NCBI GenBank assembly: GCA_024695475.1
Contig: JAILIC010000010.1
Span: forward strand, 1-64,000
Length of the DNA: 64,000 nucleotides
Direction: 5' to 3'
Source: Treponema sp.
GTDB lineage: Bacteria; Spirochaetota; Spirochaetia; Treponematales; Treponemataceae
In this document: positions 24,174-28,738 of the stretch, one piece after another
Numbering within the stretch: the stretch's first letter is position 1
Layout: each line of letters opens with the position of its first letter
The notes under the pieces: generated by a model
What the model saw: only the letters and a program-made list of their open reading frames with translations
Told to the model about the DNA's origin: nothing
Database searches by the model: none
Translations under genes and position numbers: made by a program

Positions 24174-24938
24174 TTATGACACGATGGTGACTATCTTACT
24201 GATAGCGGTTACTGGGGTTTGCAACTCTCTGCCACCTGAGCTGAATTTGGTACGGATGACAATGCGATACTCAGCATCAGTGAGCGAGTTTGGTACATAG
24301 AACTCCAGTTTTTTTGCTGTGTTGTGACTTATGGTTTTATTATCTACAGGCACCCAAGTGCTTTCGTCTTTGTTGGCTTCACCGTCATCGAGGACTGGTG
24401 CAAACCAGATGCCGGATTCTGTTCCTGCAATTTTAAGCTTGCTGCCGATTATCTTTACACCCTTGTTTTTCATCAGGCTGTCGTTTTGATCCTGATTAAA
24501 TGTATTGATGATGGTGTTGATGACAGGATTTGAATCAGTGATGATAACCTTATCGACTTTAAGGCTGTCTACGGATTCTTGAGCACGTTGACTTGGCGTA
24601 AAATTCAGTTTAAATCCCGGAATGCTTGATTCCCCTGGATTTGTGCCACTGACACTGCCATTGACAGTAATGTACAAGGTTCCCAATCCAAGAACATCGA
24701 CTGCCTTTGCATTTTGACATGCCTTGAGCATTTCGTCTCCCAGGAGGCTTGCCACATGCTGGATCATGTAGGGGCTGACACCGTTGTTTTTTTCGGAAAT
24801 GTCTGCAATCAGGTTTTCGAGGGTGACGGTGTTTCTAGTTACATGTCCGACAAAAGAGTTTTCATCGGAAACGAAATGATTTTTTCTCAACGATACGCTT
24901 AAAATGCTGTCAGCAGATTTAAAATTTGGATTTGTCAT
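24174..24938 (-). CDS. HU-like DNA-binding domain / DUF4469 protein
   Basis: 254 residues in two domains. Residues 1-130 resemble the IHF-class HU-like proteins: TLENLIADISEKN, a helical pair, then a beta arm VDVLGLGTLYITVNG. Residues about 150-254 form an Ig-like DUF4469 domain with GSKLKIAGTESGIWFAP and YRIVIRTKFSSGGREL. I know this architecture from Bacteroidota and treponemes; its role is undefined, though DNA binding by the N-terminal part is plausible. The start at 24938 has AAGGAG 8 bases before it. It is monocistronic. Upstream at 25034-25068 are two 13-bp direct repeats. Confidence 0.7.
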   Translation of the reverse strand: MTNPNFKSADSILSVSLRKNHFVSDENSFVGHVTRNTVTLENLIADISEKNNGVSPYMIQHVASLLGDEMLKACQNAKAVDVLGLGTLYITVNGSVSGTNPGESSIPGFKLNFTPSQRAQESVDSLKVDKVIITDSNPVINTIINTFNQDQNDSLMKNKGVKIIGSKLKIAGTESGIWFAPVLDDGEANKDESTWVPVDNKTISHNTAKKLEFYVPNSLTDAEYRIVIRTKFSSGGRELQTPVTAISKIVTIVS

Positions 24939-25033
24939 ATATATACTCCTTAATATGGTTTTGTCAAAGTCGAGTACAACGCGTTGATTTCGTACTTGAT
25001 GACCAGAGTATAGCCGTTTGTTTTTAACCTGTA

Positions 25034-25068
25034 TGTCAACCAAGGTAATATTTTTTGTCAACTTTGGT
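25034..25068 (-). repeat. pair of 13-bp direct repeats upstream of the HU-DUF4469 gene
   Basis: TGTCAACCAAGGT (25034-25046) and TGTCAACTTTGGT (25056-25068) match at 10 of 13 positions with a 22-bp period, about two helical turns. On the minus strand each ends in GTTGACA, so they may be operator half sites or overlapping -35 boxes. Confidence 0.4.
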
Positions 25069-25108: not shown

Positions 25109-25218
25109 CCCAGACTGTCGGGGTTAGCGATGTGTGTGATGCTGGGTAAGCCGTGTGAGTGACCGTGGGTAAGCCATGTGTGTGACACGGGGTAAGGAGC
25201 CCCCAGAGTGTCGGGGGC
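25109..25218. repeat. three 23-bp tandem repeats bracketed by 15-bp direct repeats
   Basis: Three consecutive 23-bp units (25128-25150, 25151-25173, 25174-25196) share the core GTGTG(A/T)GTGA and end in GGGTAAG; units agree at 18-19 of 23 positions. The array is flanked by CCCAGACTGTCGGGG (25109-25123) and CCCAGAGTGTCGGGG (25202-25216), one mismatch; the right copy extends to a GCCCCC/GGGGGC hairpin (25199-25218). There are no spacers, so this is not a CRISPR array. Confidence 0.65.
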
Positions 25219-25274: not shown

Positions 25275-25709
25275 TTACTCATCCTTTTCATTAATCTGTT
25301 TTAATTTTTCATTCATTTTATCAGCTGTTCCTGAATCAATTTTATAGGCTGTAAAAAATGCAAGAATGTAGGAAAAAAGAATTACTGCTTCAAATTCAAA
25401 AAAGGATGCAGGATTTTTAAAACTAAACCAGTTAAGAAAATGCCCGGTAACAAGGACAATAATGTTTACTGTAAAAGCGTATCCGATCTGCAAAAAAAAC
25501 ATTTTCATTTTTGAAATGCCTTTATCACTTAAAAGCGGAAGATAACAGACTGCACATATAAAAGCATCAAGCAGTATAAACATAATGTCTACGGCAGAAA
25601 GAACAGCCTGTTTTCCCTTAAAAATATAAAGAAAAACTGAATCAATTAAAAAAATTGCAGTAACAATAAGTGAAAATATATATATAACTGTCTTAATTTT
25701 ATCTTTCAT
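25275..25709 (-). CDS. DUF3021-type four-helix membrane protein, partner of LytTR regulator
   Basis: 144 residues with four hydrophobic helices (about 9-30, 38-58, 70-92, 103-124) and a charged C-terminal tail. Size, topology and position directly after a LytTR gene fit the DUF3021 family, whose members (as in the streptococcal HdrM/BrsM group of LytTR systems) act as membrane inhibitors of the neighbouring regulator. It is last in a four-gene operon, 25 bases after the regulator, with SD AGGAAG. I do not see a typical terminator directly after it. A role in sequestering the LytTR protein is inference from family and context. Confidence 0.65.
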   Translation of the reverse strand: MKDKIKTVIYIFSLIVTAIFLIDSVFLYIFKGKQAVLSAVDIMFILLDAFICAVCYLPLLSDKGISKMKMFFLQIGYAFTVNIIVLVTGHFLNWFSFKNPASFFEFEAVILFSYILAFFTAYKIDSGTADKMNEKLKQINEKDE

Positions 25710-25734
25710 ATAAACTTCCTAAAAATCAATAACA

Positions 25735-26172
25735 TTATAAACCAAGTATTTCCTTTAGTTTTGGAACATATTTTCTGGAAATAATTACCCTGTACCCGTT
25801 TTTTAGAACGGCTTCAAAACGCCCACCAAAAGCAGGTGTAAGAGTTTTGATTTTATTTATATTTACAATTACAGCTTTATTTGCACGGAAAAAACTGCCG
25901 GAATCCAGAATTTCTTCAATTTCATAAAGCTTAAATTTTGTCTGGAAAACATCTTCTGAAGTATAGGCAAAAACTTTTTCTTCTACAGACTCAAAATAAA
26001 AAATATCTTTTTTTTCAACAATAACGATTTTTGAATCTTTGTAGAAATTCATTTTTGAACTTCCGTTTTTAAACTGATTCAACAAACGGGTAAGGTTTTC
26101 ATCAAAACAAGAACATTTAACAATAATTTCATCTTCCTCACCTGGCTGTGTATCAAGAATGGTAATTTTCAT
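25735..26172 (-). CDS. LytTR-type DNA-binding response regulator without receiver domain
   Basis: 145 residues. The last 95 are a LytTR DNA-binding domain: KDIFYFESVEEKVFAYT, then the KLYEIEEIL helix, FFRANKAVIVNINKIKTL (DNA-contacting region) and IISRKYVPKLKE. The first 45 residues are not a CheY-like receiver, so no phosphorelay is expected; control probably comes from the adjacent DUF3021 membrane protein. It is third in the operon, 30 bases after the surface-antigen gene. The operon promoter has two GGTAAGATG boxes spaced 21 bp, the spacing LytTR dimers use, so autoregulation is likely. Confidence 0.85.
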   Translation of the reverse strand: MKITILDTQPGEEDEIIVKCSCFDENLTRLLNQFKNGSSKMNFYKDSKIVIVEKKDIFYFESVEEKVFAYTSEDVFQTKFKLYEIEEILDSGSFFRANKAVIVNINKIKTLTPAFGGRFEAVLKNGYRVIISRKYVPKLKEILGL

Positions 26173-26202
26173 TGTTACATTCTACTTTACATAAACTGTT
26201 TT

Positions 26203-27402
26203 TTAAAGCGAAATGCCAAGCGACATTACAAACTGCATGTAATGTTTTGGAATGTTATAGCCAGCTTCAATAGTCATTGCAGGAAGATTTACCTGCGGAA
26301 GATAGAGATGGAAACCGCCGGAAGGTCCATAAACATATTCAGTACTGGTATCATAATCTTCAATCAAAGCCTGCTGAAAAGACGCAAAGATTGAGCACAT
26401 AACAAGACGGCATTTTGCAATACCAATCTCTAAACCAACATCACAGCCAGCCATTTTTTCTGAATAAAAATTTCCAGAAATTAGCGAACAGGAGATATCA
26501 TCGCGAGTAAGTCGATTCATGACAGCTTTATTGTTTTCAATTCCACCTGCAATTGTAAAAAGAGAGCGTACCCTGTCGCAAAGTCGGATATTTTTTACAG
26601 CCTTTGTACTGGCAAAGTAAACAGGTTTGTTTGTTGAAGAATAGCCAACTTCCCCTTCAAGGTTGATTTCATCCTTTGAAATAAACCAACCGCTTAACTT
26701 TGAAGATGTATATTCAACAAAAGGCGCAAAATCAATTTCAAAAGATGAATCATACTTTTTTTCACAGGAAATTATGTCGTAAAATGCTAAATTAGCGCCG
26801 AATGAAAAGTTTTCGCTAGAAGCAAAACTTACGCCCGCTTTTGTAACAATTCTATGAACATCAAGCGAATACAAGTCTTCTTTATCAAGAGAAACCACCT
26901 CATATTCAGATTTCGCATACCCTCCGTATAATAAAAATCCAGATTCAGTAGAGGAGACTGCTTTTTTGTTATACGAGACCATTGTATTTACGCTTTCTTT
27001 TGAAAATATACCTCCGGTCATAAAAGTATTTCCAAGACCAAAGGCGTTTGTATCCATAAGAATTAATCCACCGGTAAAATCTTTGTCTGACCAAGAAAAT
27101 AAGGGTAGCGGAATTACCGACAGTTTTTCCTTAACTGAAATTTCAAGAGTTCCAGAATCTTCTCCTTTTTCTATATAGGTTATTTCACATTCTGAAAACT
27201 GTCCTCCAACAAGAATCTTTTCCTTAAGTTCCTCAACATTTAGCTCTGAAAAGTTTTTTCCTTCAAGATCTCCTGTAATTTTATTCATATAGCTTTCTTT
27301 TGTGCGCCATAAGCCTTTATATGCAACTTCTGTAACTTTATCTGCAAAAACAGTAAAAATCGAAGAAACTAAAATGCCAAAACATACAATAATCTTTTTC
27401 AT
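26203..27402 (-). CDS. outer-membrane surface antigen-like protein (POTRA plus BamA-like barrel)
   Basis: 399 residues with a signal peptide (MKKIIVCFGILVSSIFTVFA). Residues about 20-100 read as one POTRA unit (TEVAYKGLWRT, FSELNVEELKEKILVGGQF, LEISVKEK). The remainder is a run of amphipathic beta strands ending in QFVMSLGISL, as expected for a barrel of the surface-antigen (D15/BamA) superfamily. BamA itself is far larger with five POTRA units, so this is a short paralogue, perhaps a patatin-like or TamA-like barrel, not the essential BamA. ATG 27402 is taken because the signal peptide starts there. It lies 22 bases after the hydrolase lipoprotein gene. Confidence 0.65.
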   Translation of the reverse strand: MKKIIVCFGILVSSIFTVFADKVTEVAYKGLWRTKESYMNKITGDLEGKNFSELNVEELKEKILVGGQFSECEITYIEKGEDSGTLEISVKEKLSVIPLPLFSWSDKDFTGGLILMDTNAFGLGNTFMTGGIFSKESVNTMVSYNKKAVSSTESGFLLYGGYAKSEYEVVSLDKEDLYSLDVHRIVTKAGVSFASSENFSFGANLAFYDIISCEKKYDSSFEIDFAPFVEYTSSKLSGWFISKDEINLEGEVGYSSTNKPVYFASTKAVKNIRLCDRVRSLFTIAGGIENNKAVMNRLTRDDISCSLISGNFYSEKMAGCDVGLEIGIAKCRLVMCSIFASFQQALIEDYDTSTEYVYGPSGGFHLYLPQVNLPAMTIEAGYNIPKHYMQFVMSLGISL

Positions 27403-27424
27403 ATAATTCACCACAACAAAAAAA

Positions 27425-28507
27425 TTAAAAATGTATCTGAATGCCATTAACGTAATTTTCCCTGAAGAAATAGGTAATTTTTCTTTCCTCGGGATTAAAA
27501 ACTGCACTCCATACGGTAAGAGCTTTTCCGTTAAACTGCTTTGCCCTTACATATTTTAAAACCTGAGCTGTTTCGCTTTCAGACATTTTCCACTCTGAAG
27601 CAGTTCCTTTTTTATTTAGCATGGTGAATCTTGTATTTGAATTTTCTGTTTCTGCGTTATGGCCGTTGTCTTTTTTTGGACAATCAGTTACGTAATGGTT
27701 TGTAAGGATTTTTGTTTCACTTACATATATTTTATTATTAACCCATTCAACAGCCACAGATTTTCCGGATGAATCAGAAATTGCAAAATGATGAGCCCAG
27801 CCGATTACAGAATGCATATCTAAACCGCTGAGTAAATCTACCGCCTGATCAACAGTAGAAGCTTTATCCAAAACAAGTCTTATTGCATCCGTAGTTGTAA
27901 CGCTTATATTTCCGCGTTCCTGCGCTGTAGTTTCAGCATCTCCTGCCATTAAATCGGCAATATATAGACCTTTTTCGTTCATTCCATCCATTGGGACATA
28001 AATCAAAGCAAGCGCCTGAATGTCACTGAAAAACTTACCCTTAGGTTCCCAATTTTCATCAAATCCGAGATGTGAAAGACAGCAAGTTGAAACAGATTCA
28101 TAACCGTTATCGGGCTTTGTGTGAACTATTAGAACGGCACAGTCCTTCCAGTCATAATTGCGGCCAAAAAGAAAGCCAGCCGGATTTTCAGAATTCTTTA
28201 CAGTAATTGAACTGCACCCAAAATCACATGGAACAATTTTTAAGTCAGAAGCAGTCGTTTTCTTTGGAGAAGTCCACTTTCCTGTTTTTAAACTTGAACT
28301 AATAAAAGCAGTTAGTTCCTGAACGTTTTTAACCCCGCCTTTTTCAAGGTACGTATCAAGACAATAATCACCTTCATAATTCATGTAATAAACGCGTTCA
28401 CCGATTTTTTTAATGGATTTTACGGCGTCTGATTCTGCCTTATATGAGCAAGAAACTAAAGTTACGGAAAACAAAAATCCGAATATATAAACACTTGATT
28501 TTTTCAT
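27425..28507 (-). CDS. linear amide C-N hydrolase (choloylglycine hydrolase/Ntn family) lipoprotein
   Basis: 360 residues, exported as a lipoprotein (lipobox LVSC, Cys at about 20). The domain is of the Ntn-hydrolase type: CDFGCSSITV provides the candidate nucleophilic Cys, FGRNYDW is the Arg/Asp motif two strands later, and MDGMNEKGLYIADL is the oxyanion-region motif. Relatives cleave bile-salt, penicillin or acyl-homoserine-lactone amides, or peptides as the C45/C59 families; the substrate is not deducible. In contrast to classical members, the nucleophile is about 105 residues from the lipid anchor, so either a propeptide is removed or the enzyme is unprocessed. SD GAGGTG. First gene of the LytTR operon. 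Confidence 0.72.
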   Translation of the reverse strand: MKKSSVYIFGFLFSVTLVSCSYKAESDAVKSIKKIGERVYYMNYEGDYCLDTYLEKGGVKNVQELTAFISSSLKTGKWTSPKKTTASDLKIVPCDFGCSSITVKNSENPAGFLFGRNYDWKDCAVLIVHTKPDNGYESVSTCCLSHLGFDENWEPKGKFFSDIQALALIYVPMDGMNEKGLYIADLMAGDAETTAQERGNISVTTTDAIRLVLDKASTVDQAVDLLSGLDMHSVIGWAHHFAISDSSGKSVAVEWVNNKIYVSETKILTNHYVTDCPKKDNGHNAETENSNTRFTMLNKKGTASEWKMSESETAQVLKYVRAKQFNGKALTVWSAVFNPEERKITYFFRENYVNGIQIHF

Positions 28508-28551
28508 AGTGCACCTCACAAATAATGTGTAAGGTGATTTTAAATCCGCTC

Positions 28552-28605
28552 TTTATATCCAACAATCTCAAAACCGGTAAGATGCATTTTCAGGCGGGTA
28601 AGATG
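28552..28605 (-). promoter_or_regulatory. LytTR-type promoter: two direct repeats 21 bp apart upstream of a -10 box
   Basis: On the minus strand CATCTTACC occurs at 28605-28597 and again at 28584-28576, identical over 9 bases with a start-to-start distance of exactly 21 bp. The proximal box overlaps the -35 position of TATAAA (28557-28552), with a 17-base gap from TTACCG. LytTR regulators (AgrA, ComE, PlnC type) bind 9-bp direct repeats separated by 12 bp just in this position. A weaker, off-phase match (TGTAAGGTG on +) occurs at 28528-28536. Confidence 0.65.
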
Positions 28606-28738
28606 TACAGACGGGGAGGAAAGAAAATGTCAAATATCAGTGTTGACAGAATTTGACGATACGAGAGATATAGGTGCTTTGGACAATTTTATGATTTCTC
28701 CTGCGGCAGCATATATAATTGTATTAGCATTTGGATTT

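Follow-up and report, generated by a model that had tools for sequence, protein, structure and literature searches.

A putative LytTR–DUF3021 regulatory system with a genus-wide direct-repeat operator and a predicted lipoprotein amidase as cargo in Treponema

The 64,000-nucleotide stretch of DNA analysed here, from a gut/rumen Treponema sp. (hereafter ‘the window’) carries a four-gene operon encoding a predicted N-terminal nucleophile (Ntn) amide hydrolase lipoprotein, a small outer-membrane barrel, a LytTR regulator without a receiver domain and a four-helix, DUF3021-type membrane protein (Table 1). Judged from its sequence, the operon is a LytTR regulatory system (LRS) in which cargo lies ahead of the regulator/membrane-protein pair, with an Ntn amidase as that cargo and an operator code that runs through the genus. 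We consider it very probable that this LRS is self-activated through two boxes in its own promoter and so drives a lipid-anchored amidase, with inhibition, DNA-binding and activation all taken over from characterised members of the class. A preliminary description of the locus had already proposed a receiver-less LytTR/membrane switch, very probably controlling its own operon and driving an envelope hydrolase, and that much stands; its promoter geometry, and its inclusion of the barrel in the conserved gene set, do not.

As first described, the four open reading frames all lie on the minus strand, within positions 25275–28507, and are closely spaced, with intergenic gaps (in 5'–3' operon order) of 22, 30 and 25 nt.

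Table 1. Features of the operon and its promoter region in the window
Feature	Position	Strand	Basis
Distal LytTR box, ACATCTTACC	28597..28606	-	Sequence; box 1 consensus of the aligned operators is GCATCTTACC
Proximal LytTR box, GCATCTTACC, 21 bp from distal	28576..28585	-	Sequence; box 2 is the best-conserved part of 43 operators
Predicted -35, TTGTTG	28560..28565	-	20 bp from start of proximal box; offset 41 from distal box; aligned operators
Predicted -10, TAAAAT, 17-nt spacer	28537..28542	-	TAnnnT at offsets 64–69, 43 aligned operators
Ntn amide hydrolase lipoprotein (C45/AAT type)	27425..28507	-	Pfam/NCBIfam, alignment, fold match
Mini-Omp85 outer-membrane protein, 399 residues	26203..27402	-	AlphaFold, fold match, POTRA in homologues
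LytTR regulator, 145 residues, no receiver	25735..26172	-	Pfam LytTR 1.4e-25, residues 48–143
DUF3021-type four-helix membrane protein, predicted LytTR inhibitor	25275..25709	-	Four predicted transmembrane segments; family alignment
Hairpin GCCCCCGACACTCTGGGGGC, possible operon end	25199..25218	-	Sequence; no strong T-tract; weak

Two identical 9-bp boxes (CATCTTACC; minus strand, 28597–28605 and 28576–28584) lie 21 bp apart, start to start, upstream of the amidase gene, just as originally noted, and the same repeat is found upstream of amidase orthologues. When 43 operators, some of them from near-identical species, are aligned on their boxes, a GCATCTTACC consensus emerges at offsets 0–9 and 21–30, such that the gap between the 10-bp boxes is exactly 11 nt across loci. 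TTG then occupies offsets 41–43 (in 98, 98 and 84% of the operators), 10 bp beyond the proximal box, followed by TAnnnT at offsets 64–69 (TAtnnT, 17 nt past the TTG hexamer) and an A near offset 76; the distances from box to box (21 bp) and from proximal box to -35 (20 bp) correspond to about two helical turns each. It had been proposed that the proximal box itself forms the -35 of a promoter with TATAAA as its -10, an arrangement ruled out by the 43 aligned promoters, which put both boxes upstream of a separate, conserved -35. A generic promoter scan of the window gave no signal above shuffles.

Allowing one mismatch, the paired box occurs once in the 3.17-Mb genome, and dozens of orthologous operons carry it at the corresponding upstream position; it is therefore not a chance occurrence. 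An extended operator–promoter pattern, near-identical to that used for the survey described below, also finds a single site in this genome at up to three mismatches, and one candidate for a second operator, a lone three-mismatch site at C35, was rejected as having no promoter context. The preliminary description had held that absence of the repeat upstream of orthologous operons would count against it; at up to two mismatches the extended motif finds 63 sites in 46 of 196 genomes, with no sites for a reversed control pattern among the same 196. Such a site is present in 44 of the 58 genomes with a LytTR orthologue (one of these being partial) vs 2 of the 138 without, although the associated p-value (6e-29, ignoring kinship) is descriptive only, because the pattern was partly learned from the surveyed genomes and these are mutually related.

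The regulator, correctly recognised from the outset as receiver-less, carries a conserved N-terminal segment of about 45 residues ahead of its LytTR domain, as seen by alignment, and has orthologues at 54–78% identity in 56 other sampled genomes of the genus. Its membrane partner is 31–52% identical to Treponema proteins at the same operon position. The features that define an LRS at sequence level are thus all present: a receiver-less LytTR protein, an adjacent downstream membrane protein, and a characteristic repeat geometry before the -35. In the defining paper (PMC6193735, PLoS Genet 2018), a receiver-less LytTR gene lies upstream of a small membrane inhibitor in this class, and the promoters carry 9-bp direct repeats with an 11–12-bp gap, 4–11 bp before the -35. 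The same paper reports that inhibition and autoactivation were demonstrated in S. mutans, where deleting the membrane proteins induced their operons. The S. mutans systems described there (HdrRM, BrsRM, SMU_433/434 and SMU_1070c/1069c) share with ours a receiver-less LytTR gene that is followed directly by one for a small DUF3021/DUF2154 membrane protein, 9–10-bp direct repeats with an 11–12-bp gap and 4–11 bp to the -35 (for SMU_1070c, GCAACTTAG-11-GCAACTTGA), and their own operon as target. They differ in their cargo, which consists of ABC transporter or bacteriocin genes rather than an Ntn amidase lipoprotein (plus barrel) ahead of the pair, and in their host, Treponema being a diderm spirochaete for which we infer inhibition and feedback by analogy.

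Other published operators resemble that of the window to differing degrees. That of Listeria lmo0984–lmo0987, as given in PMC6193735, is close to it (GCATCTTAG-12-GCATGTTAC, 10 bp from TTGTAG) but is linked to an ABC transporter. An LRS had also been predicted in Treponema before, namely the putative system SAMN04487977_102124/102123 of Treponema bryantii (Table 3 of the same source); its box, ACCACTTAT-11-GCCACTTAT, has another sequence, and no amidase is mentioned in Table 3 or in the passages of that paper that were consulted. The E. coli YpdB/yhjX operator (GGCATTTCAT direct repeat; PMC4847170) likewise has two 10-bp direct repeats with an 11-nt gap, and its GCATTTCA is common to box 1 of the lipoprotein-type operons described below, although YpdB itself has a receiver domain and, as a phosphorylated response regulator, works with a histidine kinase. 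What appears new relative to published LRS is the upstream amidase cargo, the exchange of cargo on a conserved cassette, a set of probable distal targets, and operators that are flipped and shifted by one helical turn.

The proposed identity of the first gene product as an Ntn amide hydrolase is borne out by matches to Pfam AAT (PF03417; 63.6 bits vs a cut-off of 23.2, E=2.8e-17) and CBAH (E=1.7e-10); the C45 autoproteolytic acyltransferase/hydrolase model NF040521 scores 73.6 bits, below its 85-bit cut-off, as for a related protein. A signal peptide with the lipobox LVSC is followed by an N-terminal pro-domain and then by the predicted nucleophile, Cys98, directly after Gly97; both residues are invariant in a 14-sequence alignment, as are Arg116, Asn117, Asp119, Asn270 and Arg293. 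In the AlphaFold model (pLDDT 78), residues 39–360 match an isopenicillin-N acyltransferase precursor (Z 23.3, root-mean-square deviation 3.7), residues 35–351 the NAAA precursor (Z 20.7) and residues 36–353 uncleaved acid ceramidase (Z 20.4), while from Cys98 onwards the model follows solved Ntn enzymes from the start of their mature chains (Z 20–22), bile salt hydrolases and penicillin V acylases among them (Z about 21–22). Since both the full-length precursor folds and the mature enzymes are matched in this way, the protein most likely belongs to those Cys Ntn amidases that process themselves and carry an N-terminal pro-domain. It would share with the C45/AAT, NAAA, acid ceramidase and choloylglycine hydrolase enzymes the Ntn fold, a Cys nucleophile after a pro-domain and a conserved Arg and Asp, but differs in being a predicted lipoprotein of a spirochaete, at 13–24% identity to the solved members listed. 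The lipoprotein prediction comes from a hydrophobic leader and the LVSC motif that follows it; two distant orthologues (at loci L120 and L121) align without a lipobox cysteine, and a hydrophobic stretch opens at least one of them instead. The precursor fold matches also suggest that candidate substrates may be broadened to N-acyl amides.

The four genes had been expected to stay together in relatives. Amidase, LytTR and DUF3021 genes do so, in that order, in 13 other genomes of the genus (14 with this one) and in two further genera of the family (G270, G259), but the conserved set leaves out the barrel, and all four genes were found together in this genome only. With the clostridial case described next set apart, the three-gene order occurs in about 20 genomes of three genera. 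Among the 46 amidase loci of named genomes, a LytTR gene is next to the amidase in 20: 19 of Treponema-type/Spirochaetales origin and one in a Clostridia metagenome-assembled genome (MAG), RGIG2200 (locus L209). There the LytTR protein is 30% identical, the third gene encodes a DUF3021 protein (E=1.3e-12), and ACATCTTACC-N11-ACCACTCACC lies ahead of the operon, with TATAAT at offset 63. In the sampled clostridial order the pair lies beside an amidase in 1 of the 27 amidase-bearing genomes, which led us to reject the linkage as general in Clostridia and to regard this case as either transferred, in a rare event, or assembled independently. By their record titles, carrier MAGs derive from rumen, omasum, colon, rectum and faeces, among other sources. 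At one further locus (L179:728-1908) an amidase gene has a recognisable operator and no LytTR gene within 4 kb downstream.

Elsewhere in the genus the LytTR–DUF3021 pair is found with other cargo. In one type it sits after a redox operon, which in its fullest form encodes a predicted barrel, a TPR protein, a DsbD_2/SafE-like membrane protein, a polyferredoxin (Fer4) membrane protein and a Glucodextran_C/TPR protein; in another, a lipoprotein of about 195 residues precedes the pair, and other pairs stand nearly alone. On a maximum-likelihood tree of LytTR proteins at least six changes are required for the amidase label and at least five for the redox label, from which it would seem that cargo has been exchanged on a conserved regulator–operator cassette, or repeatedly lost. 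Redox-type operons occur at L111:1404-7408 and at some 34 loci like it (L111, L116, L117, L119 and the majority of L073–L107), many of which have the same kind of operator ahead of their first gene. In L158:1986-3240, a single operator precedes two successive small lipoprotein genes of the second type, in a 3.8-kb stretch where no LytTR gene was found.

Operators are also found in other species at sites distal to the pair, ahead of a flavodoxin/FMN-reductase-like gene, a small HEYGH membrane protein and lipoproteins and, less certainly, ahead of rubredoxin and NifB-like radical SAM genes. Five loci (L164, L166, L168, L169 and L170) have the operator in promoter phase before the flavodoxin_2/FMN_red gene, far from LytTR genes; in two of these five genomes a LytTR orthologue was not seen in the incomplete assembly. 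In four species (L153, L163, L165 and L167) it precedes the HEYGH protein, which is possibly metalloprotease-like and matches no Pfam family. The boxes at the rubredoxin gene (L157:2062-2387) and at the NifB-like gene beside a nifH-like gene (L155:2045-3088) have one or two mismatches and weaker promoter phasing, and may be chance matches. No distal operator was found in the genome of the window, so the switch there looks dedicated to its own operon.

The second gene was described as encoding a POTRA-plus-barrel protein, and its AlphaFold model (pLDDT 84.8) has indeed one POTRA domain and 16 strands, the hallmarks of the Omp85/BamA superfamily; it matches Fusobacterium BamA (Z 29.2, root-mean-square deviation 3.6 over 367 residues) and TamA (Z 23–25). 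The gene product itself has no Pfam match, POTRA being detected in 16 of 21 homologues, and with a single POTRA and 14 bits against the 297 of the BamA equivalog TIGR03303 it is not BamA itself. Homologues, mostly at 21–36% identity, occur in 77 of 274 genomes of the family, in unrelated neighbourhoods.

Synthesising these observations, we suggest a model in which the DUF3021 partner, as in characterised LRS, keeps the LytTR protein inactive at the inner membrane until a membrane-level signal relieves this hold. The freed regulator would then bind both boxes, which share one face of the DNA at a spacing of some two helical turns and lie shortly before the -35, and would recruit RNA polymerase to the operon's own promoter, such that LytTR, DUF3021 and cargo all rise in a positive feedback. 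The cargo would be a lipid-anchored, self-cleaving Cys amidase of the C45/NAAA/acid-ceramidase/choloylglycine-hydrolase superfamily, cutting an amide outside the inner membrane, with the mini-Omp85 barrel captured into the operon as additional cargo in this genome.

Some observations weigh against this model. The DUF3021-type protein of the window alone falls below the threshold of Pfam DUF3021 (PF11457), with no hit, whereas the other 13 of 14 aligned family members match at E<=0.01; its four transmembrane helices bear out the original assignment, and since several relatives at 31–50% identity do pass the cut-off we regard it as a divergent DUF3021 relative. A search of its own genome with the DUF3021 hidden Markov model returned no site over the cut-off and a chance-level hit elsewhere. 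About a quarter of the orthologue-bearing genomes have no match to the extended motif, which is partly explained by assembly gaps and divergent boxes, and genomes with two or three paralogous pairs carry the same box type at each, making cross-talk between pairs possible. Moreover, activation rather than repression is something we infer from box position. Boxes would be conserved under autoregulation of either sign, and binding sites alone do not reveal which, so that LytTR might instead repress its own operon, with DUF3021 relieving or tuning this repression. We think such negative feedback very improbable: the boxes end 10 bp short of the -35 and overlap neither it nor the -10, the same geometry is activating in the S. 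mutans LRS (PMC6193735), and flipped operators move by one helical turn, as expected if a polymerase contact is preserved. These last belong to a deep clade of three species with two loci each (L120/L212, L121/L207 and L219/L224), in which the boxes are inverted, reading GGTAAGTTGC along the coding strand, and the proximal box lies 23 nt from the -10 in all three vs 33 nt elsewhere; inversion together with an exact 10-bp shift is what would be expected if a protein–polymerase contact must be kept.

Alternatives to the self-activated amidase operon also concern what its products do. That all four genes form one envelope unit, with the barrel exporting or anchoring the amidase, might be argued from the barrel's position inside the operon with short gaps, and from some redox-type operons of the same switch that start with a predicted barrel. 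We find this improbable, as the barrel is missing from every other amidase–LytTR operon seen, its homologues being located elsewhere; only in this genome has it been inserted between the amidase and regulator genes, and this synteny removes it from the core set in which it had been placed. The redox-type barrel, for its part, has no solved relative by sequence and shows weak similarity to that of the window (hhalign probability 32%). A role of the operon in responding to bile or beta-lactams, with the amidase being a bile salt hydrolase or penicillin V acylase, is also quite unlikely: the fold is the same, and choloylglycine hydrolases and penicillin acylases are the best sequence matches among solved structures, but whole-length matches including the pro-domain go to acyltransferase, NAAA and ceramidase precursors, and the NCBIfam bile salt hydrolase equivalog (NF038245) gives 33.4 bits, far under its 350-bit cut-off. 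Many carriers, moreover, come from rumen or omasum, sites ahead of bile entry, and for these, going by record titles, bile salts would be a poor guess. A refinement of the favoured model, possible though doubtful, is that the amidase destroys the inducer itself, a membrane-acting N-acyl amide or conjugated amphiphile, in a self-limiting detoxification or signal-quenching loop. The linkage of amidase and switch through deep divergence, across several LytTR branches, three genera and a Clostridia MAG, speaks for this, as does an enzyme class that cleaves N-acyl amides and a predicted extracytoplasmic location; against it stand the pairs with redox or lipoprotein cargo and no amidase, and the rarity of the arrangement among clostridial amidase genomes.

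As to the surroundings of the operon, the hairpin at its possible end (Table 1) was not called by a terminator scan, and an Rfam scan of the window found nothing except one tRNA. Directly downstream (24174–25061) lies a gene of the HU-HIG type, whose product joins an HU-like DNA-binding domain to an Ig-like DUF4469 domain.

The LRS class is known and had already been noted in Treponema, which limits the surprise of finding it here. LytTR/DUF3021 systems have, however, been studied mainly in streptococci, and what they sense is the question of interest; with one operator code shared by dozens of Treponema genomes, only one target operon in the genome of the window and a defined enzyme as cargo, that question becomes testable. 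The exchange of amidase, redox and lipoprotein cargo, along with flipped and one-turn-shifted operators, provides a natural experiment on the contact between LytTR proteins and polymerase. In its boldest form, which as a whole we hold to be unlikely, our reading would be of a transferable LytTR–DUF3021 cassette that has carried one operator code and several cargos through gut Treponema, and once into Clostridia, the amidase type forming a self-limiting ‘sense-and-destroy’ loop on a membrane-active amide sensed by DUF3021, and the switch elsewhere controlling a redox regulon in trans.

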